This document shows positions 8,615-59,924 of a DNA stretch of 64,000 nt, in pieces. The position numbers and the translations under genes were made by a program. Every line of letters starts with the position of its first letter. Positions within the stretch are counted from its first letter, which is position 1. This DNA is from Bosea sp. (in: a-proteobacteria) (GTDB taxonomy: Bacteria; Pseudomonadota; Alphaproteobacteria; Rhizobiales; Beijerinckiaceae), in NCBI GenBank assembly GCA_023910605.1, contig JAAVVV010000001.1, positions 2,222,698 through 2,286,697 of the forward strand, in the 5' to 3' direction. The notes under the pieces are model-generated. The model ran no database searches and had not been told where the DNA came from. It was given only the letters and a program-made list of their open reading frames with translations.

Positions 8615-9717
8615 CAGCCGCCCAGATAGGCGCGGTGATAGCGGCGGCCGAGATTGGTCAGCATCTCATAGCCGATGGTCTTGGCGCTGGCGCCGGCCTC
8701 GTCCAGATCGATCCCGTCGCCGATCAGCACGACCTCGCTGCCGCGCTCCGCGCTGCCTGCCGGCGCATCGCTGACATCCACGATGATCAGGTCCATTGAG
8801 ACGGTTCCGGCAAAGGGGCATTTCACGCCCCCTACCATGGCATGGCCGCCTGGCAGCAGGTCGGTGTAGCTGGCGTTGCGCGGCCAGCCATCGGCATAGC
8901 CGAGCCCGATCGTGGCCAGCTTGCGTCGGCCCTTGGCGTGCCAGCGGCCATTATAGCCCACGGCCGTGCCGTCAGGCGCCACGCGGGTCTGGAGGATGCG
9001 GGAGGTCAGGCGCACCACGGGCTTCATCGGATTGGGCTCGCCCGGCGTCGGGTTGCCGCCATAGAGCGCATAACCCGGCCGCGTCAGTTGATAGGTCGGG
9101 GCGGTTTCAAGGAAATGGCCGGAGGAGTTGAGCAAGGACTTGCGCGTGTCGGGAAAAAGCTCCGCAACGCGCGAGAAGGCGTTGACCTGCCGGATATTGG
9201 CGGGATCCGAGGGCGCTTCCGACGAGGTCAGATGGGTCATTGCCAGGCTGACGCCCAGTTCCGCGAACCCGCCATCGCTCCTGATCCGGACAGCCTCGTC
9301 GAGGCTGAACCCAAGCCGGTTCATGCCGGTGTCGACATGGACTGCGCAGAACTGGCCACGCCCATGGTCAAGCCATTCGCGAAGGTCCTCCGCGCAGCCG
9401 AGCACGGGCCGGGCCGTTATCGCGTGATAGACGGGCGCGGTTCCCGGCAGCAGGCCGTTCAGCACATAGATGGTCGCCTCGTGAGAGGCGGCGCGCGCGC
9501 GCCGTGCCTCATCGAGATGCGCCACGAAGAAGGTGTGGCAGCCGGCCGAGTGCAGCGCGGGCACAACCTGCTCTATGCCGCAGCCATAGGCATCCGCCTT
9601 CACCACGGCCCCGCACTCCGCCGAACCGGCGCGGCGCGCGAGGAGCCGCCAATTGTCCGCGATCGCAGAGAGGTCGATCGTGAGAGTGGATGCGCGTTCC
9701 GCCGAGGTGTCGCTCAT
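8614..9717 (-). CDS. alr: Alanine racemase
   Basis: This PLP-dependent enzyme interconverts L- and D-alanine and supplies D-alanine for peptidoglycan. The 367-residue protein carries the PLP-binding block AVVKADAYGCG with Lys40 as the Schiff-base lysine, the HVDTGMNRLGF strand and loop, and the C-terminal barrel containing SMDLIIVDVSD with the ...VGYNGRW region before it. It lies between dnaB (1 bp downstream of the dnaB stop) and radA (1-bp overlap). The dnaB-alr-radA order is common in alphaproteobacteria. Confidence 0.96.
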   Translation of the reverse strand: MSDTSAERASTLTIDLSAIADNWRLLARRAGSAECGAVVKADAYGCGIEQVVPALHSAGCHTFFVAHLDEARRARAASHEATIYVLNGLLPGTAPVYHAITARPVLGCAEDLREWLDHGRGQFCAVHVDTGMNRLGFSLDEAVRIRSDGGFAELGVSLAMTHLTSSEAPSDPANIRQVNAFSRVAELFPDTRKSLLNSSGHFLETAPTYQLTRPGYALYGGNPTPGEPNPMKPVVRLTSRILQTRVAPDGTAVGYNGRWHAKGRRKLATIGLGYADGWPRNASYTDLLPGGHAMVGGVKCPFAGTVSMDLIIVDVSDAPAGSAERGSEVVLIGDGIDLDEAGASAKTIGYEMLTNLGRRYHRAYLGG

Positions 9718-9718
9718 A

Positions 9719-11221
9719 TCATTCCAGCCGTTCCGGGAGATGATCGGATGCGGCCAGATCAGAGAAGCGGGTGACTTCGGCGTCGAACTGGAGCTGCACC
9801 GTGCCCGTCGGGCCGTGGCGCTGCTTGCCGATGATCAATTCCGCCTTTCCGTGGATCGAGTCCATCTCGGCCTGCCATTTGAAATGGTCTTCCGTGCCGG
9901 GTTTGGGCTCCCTGTTCTTGACGTAATACTCTTCACGAAACACGAACATGACGACGTCGGCGTCCTGCTCGATCGAGCCGGACTCGCGCAGGTCCTGCAA
10001 CTGCGGGCGTTTGTCGTCGCGCGACTCGACCCCGCGCGAGAGCTGGGACAGCGCGATCACCGGAACATTCAGCTCCTTGGCCAGCGCTTTCAGCCCTGTG
10101 GTGATTTCGGTCACTTCCTGCACGCGGTTGTCACCCTTCCTGGCGGAGCCGGACAGAAGCTGCAGATAGTCGATGAACAGGATGTCGAGTCCGCGCTGCC
10201 GCTTCAGCCTGCGCGCGCGCGCCACGAGCTGCGCGATGGAGATGCCGCCGGTCTGGTCGATGTATAGCTGCATCTTCTCGATTTCGGCCGCGACATCCGA
10301 GAGCCGATAGAACTCGTTCTCGGTGATCTTGCCCTGACGGATCTTGTAGGACGAGATCTCCGACTGCTCGGCCACGATGCGCGTGGCAAGCTGCTCTGCC
10401 GACATTTCAAGCGAGAAGAAGCCGACTATGGCACCGTTGACGGTCTTCATCGTGCCATCAGGCTGGCGCTCGCCCTTGTAGGCCTTGGCCATGTTGAAGG
10501 CGATGTTGGTGGCCAGCGATGTCTTTCCCATCGCGGGGCGGCCGGCGATGATGATGAGGTCGGAATTCTGGAACCCGCCCATGCGCTGATCGAGGTCGCG
10601 CAGGCCCGTGGCGATGCCGGACAGCCCGCCATCGCGCTCATAGGCGCGTGCGGCCATGTCGATCGCCGTGGTGACCGCCTGCGAGAAGGGCTGGAAGCCA
10701 CCCTCGTAGCGTCCCTTCTCGGCGAGGGCGAAGAGCTTGCGCTCCGCTTCCTCGATCTGCTCGCGGGGAGAAGCATCGACGGGGGAGTCATAGGCGACGT
10801 TGACCATGTCCTCACCGACCGTGATCAGGCTGCGGCGAATGGCGAGATCATAGATCGTCTGGCCATAATCCTGCGCGTTGATCACGGTCGTGGCCTCGGC
10901 GGTGAGCCGGGCGAGGTATTGCGACACCTTGAGCCCGCCAAGGTCGTCATCCTGCATGAAGGTCTTGAGCGTGATCGCGTTCGCGATCTTCCCGGCCCGG
11001 ATCAGGCTTGCGGTGGTCTCGTAGATCTTGAGATGGACCTGCTCGAAGAAATGCTCGGGCAGCAGGAAGTCCGACACGCGGTAGAATGCGTCATTGTTGA
11101 CCAGGATCGCGCCCAGCAGCGCCTGTTCGGCCTCGACGTTGTGCGGCGCGACGCGGTAGCTGGCCTCCTGGCCCGCATCCAGCTTCGCCGCCAATGCGGT
11201 CACGCTCGCCATCTCATGCAC
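9719..11221 (-). CDS. dnaB: Replicative DNA helicase DnaB
   Basis: DnaB is the hexameric helicase that unwinds DNA at the replication fork. The 500-residue protein has the N-terminal DnaB domain (PHNVEAEQALLGAIL), a linker region, and the RecA-like C-terminal domain with LDQRMGGFQNSDLIIIAGRP, the Walker A loop AGRPAMGKTS, FFSLEMSAEQLA, LFIDYLQLL (Walker B) and LSQLSRGVESR. No intein interrupts the ATPase motifs. It follows rplI on the minus strand, with a strong hairpin in the 160-bp gap, and leads into alr. Confidence 0.98.
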   Translation of the reverse strand: MHEMASVTALAAKLDAGQEASYRVAPHNVEAEQALLGAILVNNDAFYRVSDFLLPEHFFEQVHLKIYETTASLIRAGKIANAITLKTFMQDDDLGGLKVSQYLARLTAEATTVINAQDYGQTIYDLAIRRSLITVGEDMVNVAYDSPVDASPREQIEEAERKLFALAEKGRYEGGFQPFSQAVTTAIDMAARAYERDGGLSGIATGLRDLDQRMGGFQNSDLIIIAGRPAMGKTSLATNIAFNMAKAYKGERQPDGTMKTVNGAIVGFFSLEMSAEQLATRIVAEQSEISSYKIRQGKITENEFYRLSDVAAEIEKMQLYIDQTGGISIAQLVARARRLKRQRGLDILFIDYLQLLSGSARKGDNRVQEVTEITTGLKALAKELNVPVIALSQLSRGVESRDDKRPQLQDLRESGSIEQDADVVMFVFREEYYVKNREPKPGTEDHFKWQAEMDSIHGKAELIIGKQRHGPTGTVQLQFDAEVTRFSDLAASDHLPERLE

Positions 11222-53600: not shown

Positions 53601-54101
53601 ACGGTGCGCCTGACGGGCGCCTCGATGGGGCGCATCGCGGCCTCCGTCATCGACCGCTCGGAGCGCCGCACCAGGACCGGCAACAAGATGGGCATCGTCC
53701 AGCTCTCGGATCAGAGCGGCCATTTCGAGGCCGTGCTCTTCGCCGAGGGGCTGCAACGCTTCCGGGATCTGCTGGAGCCGGGGCAGGTGGTGCTGCTCAT
53801 GGTCTCGGCCACGCTGGATGGCGACGAGGTCAAGCCGCGCATCGAGAGCGTGGAGCCGCTGGACGCCGCCGCCGCCCGCCAGAAGCAGGACATGCGCATC
53901 TTCGTGCGCGACGACAAGCCCGTGGCAGCCCTCACCGAGCGGCTGAAGGCCCAGGGCGACGCCCGCATCTCCGTCGTCGTCATCGTCGGCCAGGGCGACG
54001 AGGAAATCGAGGTCGAGCTGCCGGGCAAACGCTTGGTCAACCCGCAGATTGCGGGGGCCTTGCGCGCCGTGCCTGGGGTGGTGAGTGTGGAGTTGTGTTG
54101 A
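50661..54101 (+). CDS. dnaE: DNA polymerase III alpha subunit DnaE
   Basis: DnaE is the catalytic subunit of the replicative polymerase. The 1146-residue protein has an N-terminal PHP domain (FVHLHVHSSYSLLEGA, with both histidines kept), the polymerase core with PGRGSGAGSLVAYAL, the catalytic block MPDFDIDFCQDRREEV, FAFDYGFNKSHAAAYA-like ADYGFNKSHAAAYAVVSYQTAYLK, a tandem helix-hairpin-helix region (IRGVGEEAVRSIVACR) and a C-terminal OB fold. A GAGGAG ribosome-binding site lies 8 bp before the ATG. This is the replicative DnaE1 type by length. A strong hairpin follows its stop. Confidence 0.98.
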   Translation: MHAIPPEPGFVHLHVHSSYSLLEGAMTIPVLAKLAAADHQPALALTDTNNLFGALEFSEKLAGSGIQPLVGVQLCLDCADVATDSRKPMQPSHPHVVLLAASEKGYENLLALISAAYMLPDLGAPPVVGMARFGAHAEGVICLTGGAGGPVDTALREGRRELAVARLRTLLSAFGDRLYVEVQRPASGGALPTEAALLRLAYGLELPIVATNEPFFAKPQDHEAHDALLAIAAGRLMSDDDRRRVSDGQYFATRAEMARRFADLPEALATTVEVARRCAWRPTVRKPILPRYETGSGRDEPAELREQAEAGLRIRLAAHGPSPGFTVDDYEKRLAFELGVIERMKFPGYFLIVADFIKHAKAQDIPVGPGRGSGAGSLVAYALTITDVDPLRFGLLFERFLNPDRVSMPDFDIDFCQDRREEVIDYVRRRYGAERVAQIITFGTLLARGVMRDVGRVLEMPYGQVDKLTKLVPQAPGKITPLAEAISGEPRLQMAARDEPIVGRMLEIAQKLEGLHRHASTHAAGVVIGDRPLDRLVPLYRDPRTGARVTQYNMKWVEQAGLVKFDFLGLKTLTVLTTAVRLLKQRGIEIRLDALPFDDAKTYEMLARGETVGVFQVESAGMRKALVEMKADRVEDLIALVALYRPGPMDNIPTYCRRKLGLEKPSYLHPKLEPYLAETHGIIVYQEQVMQVAQALSGYSLGEADLLRRAMGKKVKAEMDAQRDRFTRGATERGLSESLASEIFDLLAKFADYGFNKSHAAAYAVVSYQTAYLKANYPVEFMAASMTLDMSNTDKLAEFRRDAERLGIRVEPPSINRSGVAFDVAEGRIFHALAAIRGVGEEAVRSIVACRAEQGPFSDLADFARRLDSRRVNKRTIEALIAAGAFDGLEPDRARAAAAIDGMVALAQRTREAHEGGQDELFGSGGSDSLVIPAHTPWTTSEKLSREHAAVGFFLSGHPLDDYALVLERLRVRRFTEFAATVRLTGASMGRIAASVIDRSERRTRTGNKMGIVQLSDQSGHFEAVLFAEGLQRFRDLLEPGQVVLLMVSATLDGDEVKPRIESVEPLDAAAARQKQDMRIFVRDDKPVAALTERLKAQGDARISVVVIVGQGDEEIEVELPGKRLVNPQIAGALRAVPGVVSVELC

Positions 54102-54164
54102 CGGCGGGATGCTCGGCGAGCGTATTTGCTGTGTGCCCCTCGTGGCTTCGCTACCCCAGATGCT

Positions 54165-54205
54165 CCTCTCCCGTTATGGATGAGCTTGATCCAAAACTGG
54201 AGAGG
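54165..54205 (+). terminator. Long imperfect hairpin downstream of dnaE
   Basis: CCTCTCCCGTTATGGAT (54165-54181) pairs with ATCCAAAACTGGAGAGG (54189-54205) at 15 of 17 positions around the 7-base loop GAGCTTG. It starts 64 bp after the dnaE stop. No T-run follows, so it may be a processing element or interspersed repeat and not a classic terminator. It marks the last GC-rich chromosomal sequence before the AT-rich island. Confidence 0.55.
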
Positions 54206-54337
54206 GCAACAGGGACGTGCCCGAAGACTAGGCGAGGGCATCTAATAATTGAATCATTAGTGAAATAACATACAATAGAATCTACATAATTCAAATTATT
54301 GCGCATCTTTATTGTGCATTAAAGAGCGTGACTATCA

Positions 54338-55309
54338 GAGCCCGTCCCGAAATGAGTTCAACGATTTGAGATGTTTATGGCCGATAGCGTTGGGGGGTTG
54401 AGCGGCCCTGTTGCATGTGATTCCGTGGTTTTGCGCAAGAACTGCGGAGATGACAATGCCATGGACCAAGGCCGCCCGGCAGAGATATGAGCGCACGGGC
54501 TTGCGATATGCAAGCGATACGCGCGATGCTGAATACGCTCTGATCGAACCCCATCTGCCTCGGACACGTTCTTTGGGGCGCCCCCGCGAGGTGGACCTGC
54601 GCGATGTGGTCGATGCCATCCTCTATCTGGCGCGGGGCGGCATCCCATGGCGGCAGCTGCCGACAGATTTTCCGCCGAGTTCGACAGTGCAACGTTACTT
54701 CTACCGCTGGCGCTCCGACGGCACGCTGGCCCAGATCAACCACGTCCTGACCATGCAGGCGCGCGAGCGTGAAGGCCGGCAAGCCAGCCCAACTGCGGGC
54801 GTGATTGACTCCCAGAGCGTCAAAACCACTGAAAGTGGCGGTCCATGCGGCTATGACGGCGGCAAGAAGATCAAGGGCCGCAAGCGCCATATCATCACCG
54901 ACACCTGTGGCTTCCTGATCGGGTTGCTGGTCCATACCGCCGATATCCAGGATCGCGATGGGGCCGTGCCGTTGCTGGCCTCCATCCGCAAGAGCCATCC
55001 CTGGCTGCGCCATGTCTTCGCCGATGGCGGTTATGCGGGCCAGAAGCTCAAGGGCGCGCTCAAGCTCATCGGCCAGTGGAAAATCGAGATCGTCAAGCGC
55101 TCCGATCAGGCCAAAGGCTTCCACGTTCTGCCCAGACGATGGGTGGTCGAGCGCACCTTCGCATGGCTCAATCGTGACAGGCGGCTCGCCAAGGACTTCG
55201 AGGCCACAATCGCAAGCGCACAGGCATGGATCATGGTCGCTAGCATCAGGCTCCTCGTCCGACGCCTCGCAAGCCCATGATATCGCTTAGGTCATTATGA
55301 GTCGGGCTC
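54338..55309 (+). mobile_element. IS5-superfamily insertion sequence (IS-A), complete
   Basis: The element is 972 bp. Terminal inverted repeats begin GAGCCCG at 54338 and end CGGGCTC at 55309, with imperfect matching over about 30 bp. It is flanked by the 3-bp direct repeat TCA (54335-54337 and 55310-55312), the TNA target duplication of the IS1031-type branch of IS5. It encodes one transposase. It inserted 18 bp downstream of the ATPase pseudogene's stop codon. Confidence 0.85.
54450..55280 (+). CDS. IS5 family transposase of IS-A
   Basis: The 276-residue transposase starts at ATG 54450 (MTMPWTKAARQRYERTG); a TTG 13 codons upstream is less likely. It has the N-terminal DUF4096-like segment YALIEPHLP...GRPREVDLRDVVDAILYLARGGIPWRQLP and a DDE domain with VIDSQSVKTTE (first Asp), VFADGGYAGQ (second Asp) and VERTFAWLNRDRRLAKDFE (Glu). 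The frame is intact, so the element could be active. Confidence 0.92.
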   Translation: MTMPWTKAARQRYERTGLRYASDTRDAEYALIEPHLPRTRSLGRPREVDLRDVVDAILYLARGGIPWRQLPTDFPPSSTVQRYFYRWRSDGTLAQINHVLTMQAREREGRQASPTAGVIDSQSVKTTESGGPCGYDGGKKIKGRKRHIITDTCGFLIGLLVHTADIQDRDGAVPLLASIRKSHPWLRHVFADGGYAGQKLKGALKLIGQWKIEIVKRSDQAKGFHVLPRRWVVERTFAWLNRDRRLAKDFEATIASAQAWIMVASIRLLVRRLASP

Positions 55310-55536
55310 TCAAATAAGAAAGTATGTTATTTAGTTTTCGCTTGCGGTTCCTTGCACGAGTTCAAGAGCTGGCCTATAGAGGAATGGTACTCGCCACGTT
55401 ATTTCACCAGAGCGAGTGACTTTTTCAAAGAATCCGACCTCCTCAAGCCTTGCTATAATCTTTACGGTTTCCCCTTCAGAGGTTCGCCATAATGACATCA
55501 GTGACGCGATCGACTGAGTTGATTTCTGATACCTCA

Positions 55537-56441
55537 GAGTCCGTTTGGAAAGTCAGGGATGAGCGTTTCTTCGGATAAGAAGGCCGCCCATGGCGACGTG
55601 GATCATGGCGGTTGAGACGTCGATGCGTTTTTCATAGTCGCGGACGAGGCGGCGCCAGCGCATCATCCATCCGAAGGTCCGCTCGACGACCCAGCGCCGG
55701 GGCAGAACATGGAAGCCCTTCTGCTGCTCGGAGCGCCGGATGATCTCGATGACGAAGTTGAGATAGGCGGCCTTGTCCATCAAGGTCAGGCGGTCGTAGG
55801 CGGCGTCGGCGAAGAGATGCTTCACCCAGGGCCAGCGCTTGCGGATGGCATCGAGGATGGCTTGCGCACCGGCGCTGTCGGAGATGTCGGCGGTCGTCAG
55901 ATTGACCATCAAGAGCCGTCCGTCGGTATCGACCGCGATATGTCGCTTGCGGCCGCGTATCTTCTTGTTGGCGTCGTAACCCCTTGTTTTGGCTTGCGGA
56001 GCCTTGACCGACTGGCTGTCGATCACCGCCGCCGTGGGGCTTGCCTCGCGACCAACCCGCTCCCGGTCGAGCATCAGCTCGACATCGTGGATGGTCTGGA
56101 ACAGGAAGCGCCGCGCCAGTTCGCGGAACCAGCCGTAAACCGTTCGCCAATGGCCGAAATGATGAGGCAGCATCCGCCAGCCGCAGCCCGAGCGCACCAG
56201 ATAGCGCACGGCGTTGATCACCTCGCGGAAGTCCGTCTCCCGAGGCCGTCCCGTCCGTCCGGGTTTGGGCATCAAGGGCGCGATCCGGGCCCACTCCTCG
56301 TCCGTCAGGTCGCAGGGATAGCGCTTCGTCTTCTTGGCGATCTTGGCCATCCGGCCCCGGTTCTCATGTGTCCACATCCGTAATGTGAATCACATTCGCC
56401 AGCCCACCGAAACACCAATCGCCGACTTTCCAAACAGTCTC
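55537..56441 (-). mobile_element. IS5-superfamily insertion sequence (IS-B copy 1), inside the ATPase gene
   Basis: The element is 905 bp. Terminal repeats are GAGTCCGTTTGGAAAGTC at 55537 and, on the other strand, GAGACTGTTTGGAAAGTC ending at 56441, 16 of 18 positions matching. Flanking direct repeats are TCA (55534-55536 and 56442-56444). It is identical to copy 2 except for three substitutions I noticed (56249, 56253 and 56414). It encodes one transposase on the minus strand. Confidence 0.88.
55553..56377 (-). CDS. IS5 family transposase of IS-B copy 1
   Basis: The 274-residue protein starts at ATG 56377 (MWTHENRGRMAKIAKK) or at Met10 (56350). It has LTDEEWARIAPLMPKPGRTGRPRETDFREVINAVRYLVRSGCGWRMLPHHF at the N-terminal side, then a DDE domain with VIDSQSVKAPQAK, LFADAAYDRLTL, and VERTFGWMMRWRRLVRDYEKR. 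The frame is intact. It differs from the copy 2 transposase at one residue, Thr in place of Met in the PGR(T/M)GRP segment. Confidence 0.93.
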   Translation of the reverse strand: MWTHENRGRMAKIAKKTKRYPCDLTDEEWARIAPLMPKPGRTGRPRETDFREVINAVRYLVRSGCGWRMLPHHFGHWRTVYGWFRELARRFLFQTIHDVELMLDRERVGREASPTAAVIDSQSVKAPQAKTRGYDANKKIRGRKRHIAVDTDGRLLMVNLTTADISDSAGAQAILDAIRKRWPWVKHLFADAAYDRLTLMDKAAYLNFVIEIIRRSEQQKGFHVLPRRWVVERTFGWMMRWRRLVRDYEKRIDVSTAMIHVAMGGLLIRRNAHP

Positions 56442-57738
56442 TCATTGCCTCGACATGTTGTTTGATATCTGGATATTCTGCGAAAAGAGTTTGCTCTAGG
56501 CGTACTTTTGATACGTTTGGTAGCGCCTCTTTAAATGCTACTTGGTCAAATAGTTTGCCAGCTGGTAGGGTTTTCTCGCCTCTTTCCAATCGAGCAATCT
56601 GTACGGTCCTTAACTCGTTGAGAAAATGGATAAGCTCCCGTGGAGCATTAGGCTGCGTACCGTCTTTTGTCCGACTCAAAATCCAATCAAAAGTTTTTGG
56701 TTTATTTGGGCCCGAGTCGACTTGTTGTGGAAATATAGATCCTATGAAAGCTTGCTGAGACGCAAAATTTGATAAAATCTCGTCGGGTACAATTTTAAAA
56801 TAATCACATATTGACTTATTGGCCACGGCGCGCCGCACGAACAAATTTACGAGTGTTTCGTTGTTCCATTCAATGTTCAATGATCTTTCAATATGACTCG
56901 CCTCTCTGAAGCCTGAGGCAGATATGCTTTTCCATATGTCGCTACGAAGGAATATTTTTGTCTTTATATTGTTATTTGATTTCGTTTCCAAATAAAACTG
57001 AAATAGCGCCCTCAGAGCAGCGTTCTCTAATTTTTCATTGTTTTGAAATGCAACGTCGAGACGGTCTAGGGTAATCCAGATTGTGTAGCCTGCGTCTTTC
57101 AATGCATCCGACATACTCTTGAATAGATCGTCTACCGATCGAACGCCGACCTTAGATGCGGCAGCCCCAGGCTCCCTCAAGACGATACGGCCGGCAATAC
57201 CGGTTGGCATGCCCGTTATCGGGTCGATCTTTAGCTCGGACTCGATAGCCTGAATCCTCGTCAGGCTCTTAACATAGTCAAATGCATACTTGAGAGCTTT
57301 CGATAGAGAGGGATCTGATGGTATCAGATTTGCCTCTTCAAGAATTGAAATACAATCAAGGCACTTTTTATTACTAATTCCATTGATTTTTATCGCTTGG
57401 CCACAGAGGCTGAGTACGTACAATTTCCAAATGCTAATAAATTCGAACTGATCGACCGGCATGTCGTCGATAAGAATCTTGAATGCAGGTGTCCCTTGTG
57501 GGTTTTCCCCCTGTACAACTAAAATATTCTTTTCTTTGAGCAACTCACCGTTCTGAGATATCAAACTATAGATTGCGCTTTTCCCACTGCCTTTTGGGCC
57601 GTATACAACATCGACAGTGCCGTCGATTACCTGCTTCCATTGGTCTGTTTCAACAAAATAGTTCTTGAGCTGATCAAATTCTTCTTCGGCAGTCCTTTTG
57701 CCGAAACTGGAGTTTTTTAGGGCTTCGAGCGGTTCCAT

Positions 57739-57820
57739 TTGTTGCCTTGCGTTATCTAACTATTTCGCATTTTTATCAGGGTAGTAGGTAAACTTCCAAG
57801 TTCAAGGCTTGTTGCGCTAA
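57739..57820 (-). other. 82-bp leader between the ATPase start and IS-B copy 2
   Basis: This short AT-rich stretch carries what remains of the ATPase gene's upstream region. On the minus strand a TTGAAC box is present but has no well-spaced -10 partner. The IS ends 82 bp before the ATPase start and could have separated the gene from its original promoter or supplied a new one. Confidence 0.4.
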
Positions 57821-58725
57821 GAGTCCGTTTGGAAAGTCAGGGATGAGCGTTTCTTCGGATAAGAAGGCCGCCCATGGCGACGTGGATCATGGCGGTTGAG
57901 ACGTCGATGCGTTTTTCATAGTCGCGGACGAGGCGGCGCCAGCGCATCATCCATCCGAAGGTCCGCTCGACGACCCAGCGCCGGGGCAGAACATGGAAGC
58001 CCTTCTGCTGCTCGGAGCGCCGGATGATCTCGATGACGAAGTTGAGATAGGCGGCCTTGTCCATCAAGGTCAGGCGGTCGTAGGCGGCGTCGGCGAAGAG
58101 ATGCTTCACCCAGGGCCAGCGCTTGCGGATGGCATCGAGGATGGCTTGCGCACCGGCGCTGTCGGAGATGTCGGCGGTCGTCAGATTGACCATCAAGAGC
58201 CGTCCGTCGGTATCGACCGCGATATGTCGCTTGCGGCCGCGTATCTTCTTGTTGGCGTCGTAACCCCTTGTTTTGGCTTGCGGAGCCTTGACCGACTGGC
58301 TGTCGATCACCGCCGCCGTGGGGCTTGCCTCGCGACCAACCCGCTCCCGGTCGAGCATCAGCTCGACATCGTGGATGGTCTGGAACAGGAAGCGCCGCGC
58401 CAGTTCGCGGAACCAGCCGTAAACCGTTCGCCAATGGCCGAAATGATGAGGCAGCATCCGCCAGCCGCAGCCCGAGCGCACCAGATAGCGCACGGCGTTG
58501 ATCACCTCGCGGAAGTCCGTCTCCCGAGGCCGCCCCATCCGTCCGGGTTTGGGCATCAAGGGCGCGATCCGGGCCCACTCCTCGTCCGTCAGGTCGCAGG
58601 GATAGCGCTTCGTCTTCTTGGCGATCTTGGCCATCCGGCCCCGGTTCTCATGTGTCCACATCCGTAATGTGAATCACATTCGCCAGCCCACCGAAACCCC
58701 AATCGCCGACTTTCCAAACAGTCTC
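57821..58725 (-). mobile_element. IS5-superfamily insertion sequence (IS-B copy 2), upstream of rpsB
   Basis: The element is 905 bp, with the same terminal repeats as copy 1 (GAGTCCG at 57821, reverse-complement end at 58725). Flanking direct repeats are TAA (57818-57820 and 58726-58728), again TNA. It lies in the same orientation as copy 1. Different target duplications show that the two copies inserted separately. Its right end lies 206 bp upstream of rpsB. Confidence 0.88.
57837..58661 (-). CDS. IS5 family transposase of IS-B copy 2
   Basis: The 274-residue transposase matches the copy 1 protein except for Met in place of Thr in the PGRMGRPRE segment. The DDE residues (VIDSQSVK, LFADAAYD, VERTFGW) are all present and the frame is intact, so it may be functional. 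It reads leftward, toward the ATPase gene. Start alternatives are as for copy 1. Confidence 0.93.
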   Translation of the reverse strand: MWTHENRGRMAKIAKKTKRYPCDLTDEEWARIAPLMPKPGRMGRPRETDFREVINAVRYLVRSGCGWRMLPHHFGHWRTVYGWFRELARRFLFQTIHDVELMLDRERVGREASPTAAVIDSQSVKAPQAKTRGYDANKKIRGRKRHIAVDTDGRLLMVNLTTADISDSAGAQAILDAIRKRWPWVKHLFADAAYDRLTLMDKAAYLNFVIEIIRRSEQQKGFHVLPRRWVVERTFGWMMRWRRLVRDYEKRIDVSTAMIHVAMGGLLIRRNAHP

Positions 58726-58728
58726 TAA

Positions 58729-58931
58729 GTTGGCTTACTTCAACAGGCATGTCAGCCCCTTGCCCTCTCCCCCAAACCCTGCTAACGCCCCCGGCATCCC
58801 ACATGCGGGCCTTATCGGGCGGAAGCTTATTCCGTCCTTCCGGTGGCGGATCGCGGGCGGGCCTTGATGGCCACGTCCCCCGGTCAGCCGCGCTGGTCCC
58901 GCAGAGGCACTCGTAACCGGAAAGAACGACA
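58729..58931 (+). promoter_or_regulatory. Leader region upstream of rpsB, after IS-B copy 2
   Basis: This 203-bp stretch is the remaining upstream region of rpsB. It holds a possible short hairpin, CGGAAG with CTTCCG, around 58820-58840. An rpsB leader of this length could carry feedback control by S2, but no known motif was recognised. Any promoter further upstream has been moved away by the IS. Confidence 0.35.

Positions 58932-59924
<993 letters not shown>

Follow-up and report, generated by a model that had tools for sequence, protein, structure and literature searches.

DS-41 is listed among the validated systems in the accessible text of the DefensePredictor paper, with homologues in Halobacteria (PMC13092281); the name Sll1717 does not occur in the main text of that paper. 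To judge by its name, DS41_1 (NF053860, labelled 'anti-phage protein' at NCBI) would be a protein of the DS-41 system. For the BREX protein BrxC, binding to DNA and self-association under the control of ATP are described in the accessible parts of two studies (PMC13326643, PMC12839542).

The gene compared here with these systems was found between dnaE and rpsB in the window, which is the whole analysed stretch of 64,000 nucleotides from a Bosea sp. genome of 3.76 Mb. It is split into two pieces by an IS element. The 5' piece alone (56443-57738, minus strand, 432 codons) matched NCBIfam NF047389 (P-loop ATPase, Sll1717 family) with 179 bits and E 1.8e-52 over profile positions 1-375 of 454, the cut-off being 75 bits. 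Together with a C terminus homologous to that of intact members, this places the gene in the Sll1717 family, as suggested by the original prediction. With 318 bits the front piece also matched PHROG 14159, a viral protein family of unknown function; in Pfam only ORC-CDC6-like and AAA matches were obtained for it, all below threshold. The family is already named at NCBI, and the window gene adds one member to it. 'Undescribed accessory system', for which the locus had been put forward as a candidate, is therefore too strong for one gene without a shared partner from a named family, on which no paper was found. The literature search, with most subscription papers outside its range, yielded no paper naming Sll1717, NF047389 or PDC-M28. 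The break itself would be an ordinary IS inactivation of recently acquired cargo. The interesting part is the family: conserved, mobile, encoded by a single gene and distantly related to a protein with an anti-phage label. Its fold is clearly predicted and its Walker B motif is odd.

Towards NF053860 the front piece reached 46.5 bits, far below the cut-off of 370. A DS41_1 member above this cut-off, present in 1 of 398 genomes, aligned to the Sll1717 profile over 328 columns (hhalign E 7e-8). Distant homology over the ATPase part is thus shared by DS-41 and the window family. Both have a Walker B motif of the form D-[RK]-h-D, with D-K-V-D in the one DS41_1 member read. In contrast, this DS41_1 (one member, L118) has a Cys-rich end and is followed by a peptidase-like gene, whereas the Sll1717 family has a winged-helix end and no shared partner. 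The gene after DS41_1 (L118:3095-3607, genome G091) codes for a protein of 171 aa with HEVGH and a weak match to peptidase M50B (25.6 bits, cut-off 26).

By fold, BrxC belongs to the same ATPase clade and has a winged helix after the ATPase. According to the accessible text of PMC12839542, it comprises 1200-1300 residues with further domains and acts together with BREX partners, of which nothing was seen for the window gene. No BREX partner genes were shared in 34 homologue loci, and the window copy is flanked by IS elements, dnaE and rpsB. Archaeal Orc1/Cdc6 initiators were among the best structural matches, with ATPase and winged helix in both. However, their identity to the homologue model was 10-13%, and the window family has no shared replication gene nearby. 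ORC proteins have Glu at the second Walker B place; this usual Glu after the first Asp is missing in the window family. What distinguishes the window copy from other members of NF047389 is the IS within its winged-helix domain.

The insert that separates dnaE from rpsB (outer limits 54092-58791) is missing as a whole in two sister genomes. In G034 and G026 (rpsB protein 95% identical) the gap from the dnaE end to the rpsB leader is 78 and 262 bp, compared with 4.7 kb in the window. The contig of a third sister (G031) stops short of the dnaE-rpsB site, which is covered by two sister species. This agrees with the accessory position proposed before. An uninterrupted copy between dnaE and rpsB, to be looked for in sister strains according to the original prediction, was absent from both species, and among 36 other genomes of the genus no full-length homologue was found, though a match of 70 residues was obtained in one of them. 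An ancestral gene at this site was rejected because the sister sites are empty. The GC content is 69% in dnaE and rpsB and 19-47% in the insert outside the IS elements (54236 to 57820), whose AT-rich left end (54236-54337) has 29%. Third-position GC was 0.442 and 0.441 in the two gene pieces versus 0.903 in dnaE and 0.937 in rpsB. The segment 54116-54337 is present once in the genome. Without the IS elements the cargo amounts to about 1.8 kb and one gene. It is a single foreign gene, recently acquired, with foreign composition and a site that is vacant in the sisters. Near the ends of the insert an 11-bp inverted repeat was observed (54199-54209, 58760-58770); it could be coincidental or belong to a common type of intergenic repeat. 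The adjacent rpsB (58932-59924) has a C-terminal extension, about residues 238-327, to which further proteins from many genomes of this genus are also similar.

The minus-strand frame of the ATPase gene starts at 57738. After 432 codons an IS5-family element is entered at 56441, and residue 433 of the front piece is already IS-encoded. Walker A (residues 47-54) and the Walker-B-like LDRLD (224-228) lie in the 5' piece. The 3' piece (55331-55534, minus strand) consists of 67 sense codons and TAA and codes for the larger part of the winged helix, with its wing and helices 2 and 3. A split by an IS at 55537-56441 with one TCA duplication had been predicted, and coordinates and duplication were both confirmed. 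The same holds for the predicted 1500 nt ending with TAA at 55331: the span 57738-55331+1 is 2408, and subtraction of 905 and one TCA leaves 1500 nt, i.e. 499 sense codons and TAA. The 67 sense codons of the back piece are AGG and the 66 codons counted in the original prediction. A length of 490-510 residues was found for 18 of 34 homologous longest ORFs.

For the analysis the two halves were not joined, each being aligned separately to intact homologues. The front half reaches as far as homologue residue 434, with the back half taking over at 435; the last native residue of the front piece and the first of the back piece are adjacent columns in two separate alignments. Thus, no gene sequence was lost. 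The back piece alone, aligned from residue 435, showed 28/64 (E 3e-15) and 29/65 (E 2e-15) identities to two intact homologues, i.e. 44-45% identity. Behind the cut, seven columns are nearly invariant (L446, G468, F469, P484, Y487, R488 and L491 of the reference homologue; at least 90% conserved, 32 rows), and in an ungapped alignment the back piece agreed with all seven. A random open frame was rejected for the back piece, since homology to intact homologues begins at the expected position. The earlier claim of a non-random join and a C terminus alignable with homologues is supported by this homology, but its argument from the open frame is weaker, as 67 codons stay open by chance with a probability of about 0.018 at 43% GC. 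Of the 61 columns with at least 90% conservation (32 rows, own row counted in), the front piece has the most frequent residue at 60.

An AlphaFold model of an intact homologue (G755), calculated from 32 sequences, had a mean pLDDT of 87.7. With the full model, 11 chains of the PDB were found by Foldseek at E<=0.001: six of ORC/Cdc6 (including 7jgr, 2qby, 1w5t, 1w5s and 7tjf), the archaeal Walker ATPase 2qen, BrxC (9zdx and 9zll), Apaf-1 and CED-4. Avs3 was the next match (5.7e-3). The query-length TM-scores of the 11 matches were 0.16-0.37; hence, the kinship is one of domain type and does not extend to the whole arrangement. The last 110 residues, modelled alone, gave the order alpha-beta-alpha-alpha-beta-beta of a winged-helix topology. 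Structural matches of this C domain were mostly DNA-binding winged helices of ArsR/MarR type (best E 3.9e-3, none at 0.001). Both models support the winged-helix-like C terminus described in the original prediction. The protein is predicted to be an ORC/Cdc6-STAND-like P-loop ATPase with a C-terminal winged helix, though with low TM-scores. The cut lies behind the first helix of the C domain and thus removes helices 2 and 3 together with the wing. In sequence searches of the PDB, no chain was found at E<=1 with the single sequence; with the profile, eight chains of P-loop, ABC-transporter or Fic type were obtained. In a viral structure library, the one match that reached E<=0.001 was to an uncharacterised protein of a giant virus. 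The protein has no fused effector domain.

The Walker A motif GPKGSGKS, recognized already in the original prediction, occupies residues 47-54, and K49, G50, G52 and K53 are the same in 32 of 32 rows. Walker B (D225-R226-L227-D228) is present in all 32 rows, save one row at Leu. With regard to the ORC/Cdc6-STAND clade, the acidic residue after the Walker B Asp is missing, and Arg stands there in 32 of 32 rows. STAND ATPases of NACHT type, with the Walker B D-G-h-D-E, are likewise without an acid directly after the first Asp. The Walker B with Arg suggests a slow or altered hydrolysis.

Homologues are scattered widely. In the phylum sample some match was obtained for 25 of 398 genomes, and besides the window only G076 was near full length. 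In the order sample 15 of 397 genomes had some match; three besides the window were near full length, with 43-45% identity. At least 39 homologue loci from many phyla were confirmed in named genomes. The matches listed include members of Acidobacteriota, Gemmatimonadota, Bacteroidota, Chloroflexota, Actinomycetota, Bacillota, Spirochaetota and Pseudomonadota, plus a haloarchaeon, and 28 of the 39 loci show 40-48% identity. Many of the loci are metagenome bins, in which misplaced contigs are possible. The homologue tree was star-like. The window copy had no supported close kin and was not grouped with support with prophage-borne homologues. Phylum labels changed 14 times on the tree versus a shuffled mean of 13.8, which is no extra clustering overall; Pseudomonadota alone were clustered (6 changes, shuffled mean 9.7). 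This pattern would fit transfer but is no proof of it.

Neighbouring genes were investigated at 34 loci, i.e. 32 of the 39 listed loci (without L111-L117) and additionally L071 and L073; the 32-row alignment (A3) also omits L101, L103 and L109. After clustering of 561 neighbour ORFs of at least 80 aa at E 1e-8, no partner gene was shared by more than 4 of the 34 loci. A system of two or more genes was rejected, the largest neighbour cluster being common to four loci and including an integrase. At 1e-8, PADLOC gave matches to 76 families for 94 neighbours and to 55 for 94 control ORFs, figures which count families, the top ones being largely generic methylase or helicase models. An enrichment of the neighbours in defence genes does not emerge from this comparison with the control. 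The 94 neighbours were chosen by eye from 185 nearest ORFs to drop likely spurious ones and represent 27 of the 34 loci. The control is rough, with 94 drawn from 123 ORFs of at least 110 aa on eight stretches of same-phylum genomes; these were not the host genomes of the homologue loci, though three of the eight hold homologues. When 10 defence-looking neighbours were scanned singly, 6 matched PADLOC, but they were picked by eye and hence are no sample.

PADLOC-matched genes stand within three ORFs of some homologues. At L081 a gene matching PDC-S54 with 514 bits (8742-9968) ends about 30 bp upstream of the Sll1717-family ATPase on the same strand. The LRR-ROC-COR-TIR protein of L101 (7235-9919), a Spartobacteria bin, ends 79 bp upstream of the ATPase match, again with both on one strand. 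A type I restriction subunit (L098), an AbiO/Nhi-like protein (L090), a UvrD/GajB-like helicase (L086) and a weak type II restriction match (L091) were found near further homologues. As a separate observation, the Sll1717-family ATPase of L095 (Rhodanobacter) and DS41_1 of L118 are each immediately preceded by a ribonucleotide-reductase gene, and these two genes belong to one family (TSCPD, PHROG 23565; L095:9006-9824 and L118:579-1376, the latter in G091), which looks like a shared insertion hotspot.

The reading we favour, with about even confidence, is that the window protein is an ATP-switched, DNA-binding protein that acts alone against phages or mobile elements. The defence role is suggested by the kinship with DS41_1, by a partnerless, mobile-looking family with prophage copies and by the PADLOC-matched neighbours. 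Against it speak the low score towards NF053860, the peptidase-like gene that follows the one DS41_1 member, neighbours not enriched over the control, the lack of supported grouping of the window copy with prophage-borne homologues, the absence of matches in phage records and viral contigs, the low TM-scores and the lack of a fused effector domain. A single foreign gene would have been inserted at the dnaE-rpsB site in the lineage of the window. Binding of ATP would switch or assemble the Sll1717-family protein, the winged helix would place it on DNA, and the DNA-bound assembly would block replication or expression of an invader (phage or mobile element). A copy of the IS5 family would then have interrupted the gene within the winged-helix domain, so that the ATPase lost most of its DNA-binding end. 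We infer all four components, i.e. DNA binding, ATP switch, defence role and loss of function. As a more tentative extension, the Sll1717 ATPases may represent a widespread, unpublished one-gene class against mobile elements, found in some prophages and as solitary cargo of chromosomes. With an invariant Arg in place of the catalytic Walker B acid, their ORC/STAND fold would serve as an ATP-binding clamp on the DNA of the invader and not as a motor.

Three homologues (L071, L072/L092, L084) lie within prophage gene blocks, recognizable by genes for terminase, tape measure or integrase. The homologue of G736 lies behind the large terminase, at a distance of 35 bp from its longest ORF start or 140 bp from the homologue-aligned start. 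In Aureimonas glaciei the homologue is located two genes behind a terminase of 72% identity, and the homologue of Devosia elaeis adjoins a tape-measure gene. These three homologues in prophage gene blocks, the ORC/Cdc6 proteins as top structural matches and the chains of the plasmid-segregation protein TubR among the C-domain matches would also fit a maintenance factor, i.e. an ORC/Cdc6-like ATPase serving replication start, partition or gene control of a prophage, satellite or plasmid and stranded after decay of the element. We regard this as rather unlikely, since matches were limited to 6 of 72,556 plasmid records, the 50,697 phage records gave none, and no replication gene is common beside the homologues. 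Furthermore, the genes directly beside the prophage copies code for terminase, tail and tape-measure proteins; yet a primase-like gene is located about 4 kb from the homologue of L072. A search of viral contigs for close relatives likewise gave no match, although the family is represented by a PHROG.

STAND-like ATPases that carry a winged helix can act in the regulation of transcription. The resemblance of the C domain to ArsR/MarR regulators and the lack of a shared partner are compatible with a DNA-binding, ATP-switched regulator of a host stress response, which was spread by transfer and has no role against mobile elements. However, no adjacent target operon is common to the 34 loci, and the scatter across phyla is unlike that of such a gene; this explanation is unlikely.

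The frame left behind by the insertion covers 477 codons (56305-57738, minus strand), 432 native ones and 45 of IS sequence. As this frame stays open for 45 codons into the IS, a product devoid of most of the winged helix could still be made. That such a product is active and the gene remodelled and alive is very improbable: the whole ATPase part is kept, but most of the winged helix with 7 strongly conserved columns is gone and a second IS copy lies upstream of the start. The gene has likely been inactivated by the IS.

The interrupting element, IS-B copy 1 (55537-56441, minus strand, 905 bp), carries a DUF4096 / DDE_Tnp_1 transposase (55553-56377) and imperfect terminal repeats with TCA on either side as target duplication. 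Its assignment to the IS5 family is based on the PF13340 and PF01609 transposase, the terminal repeats and the short TCA/TAA target duplications. Eleven full-length copies of IS-B were detected in the genome, of which 10, including copy 1, tie at the top score. The eleventh is IS-B copy 2 (57821-58725, minus strand, TAA target duplication), with 3 differences from copy 1; it has the same orientation and is separated by 82 bp from the start codon of the ATPase gene, which lies downstream of it. A recent insertion, as claimed in the original prediction, fits both the 10 equal-score copies and the conserved columns kept in the front piece. Downstream of the gene, IS-A, also of the IS5 family (54338-55309, plus strand, transposase 54411-55280, TCA target duplication), ends 21 bp past the ATPase stop codon. 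The genome has no second full-length copy of IS-A, and the matches that come next are partial and about 71% identical; IS-A may thus have arrived with the cargo. IS-B copy 2 may also part the ATPase gene from its promoter, and recombination of IS-B copies 1 and 2 could delete the 5' piece.
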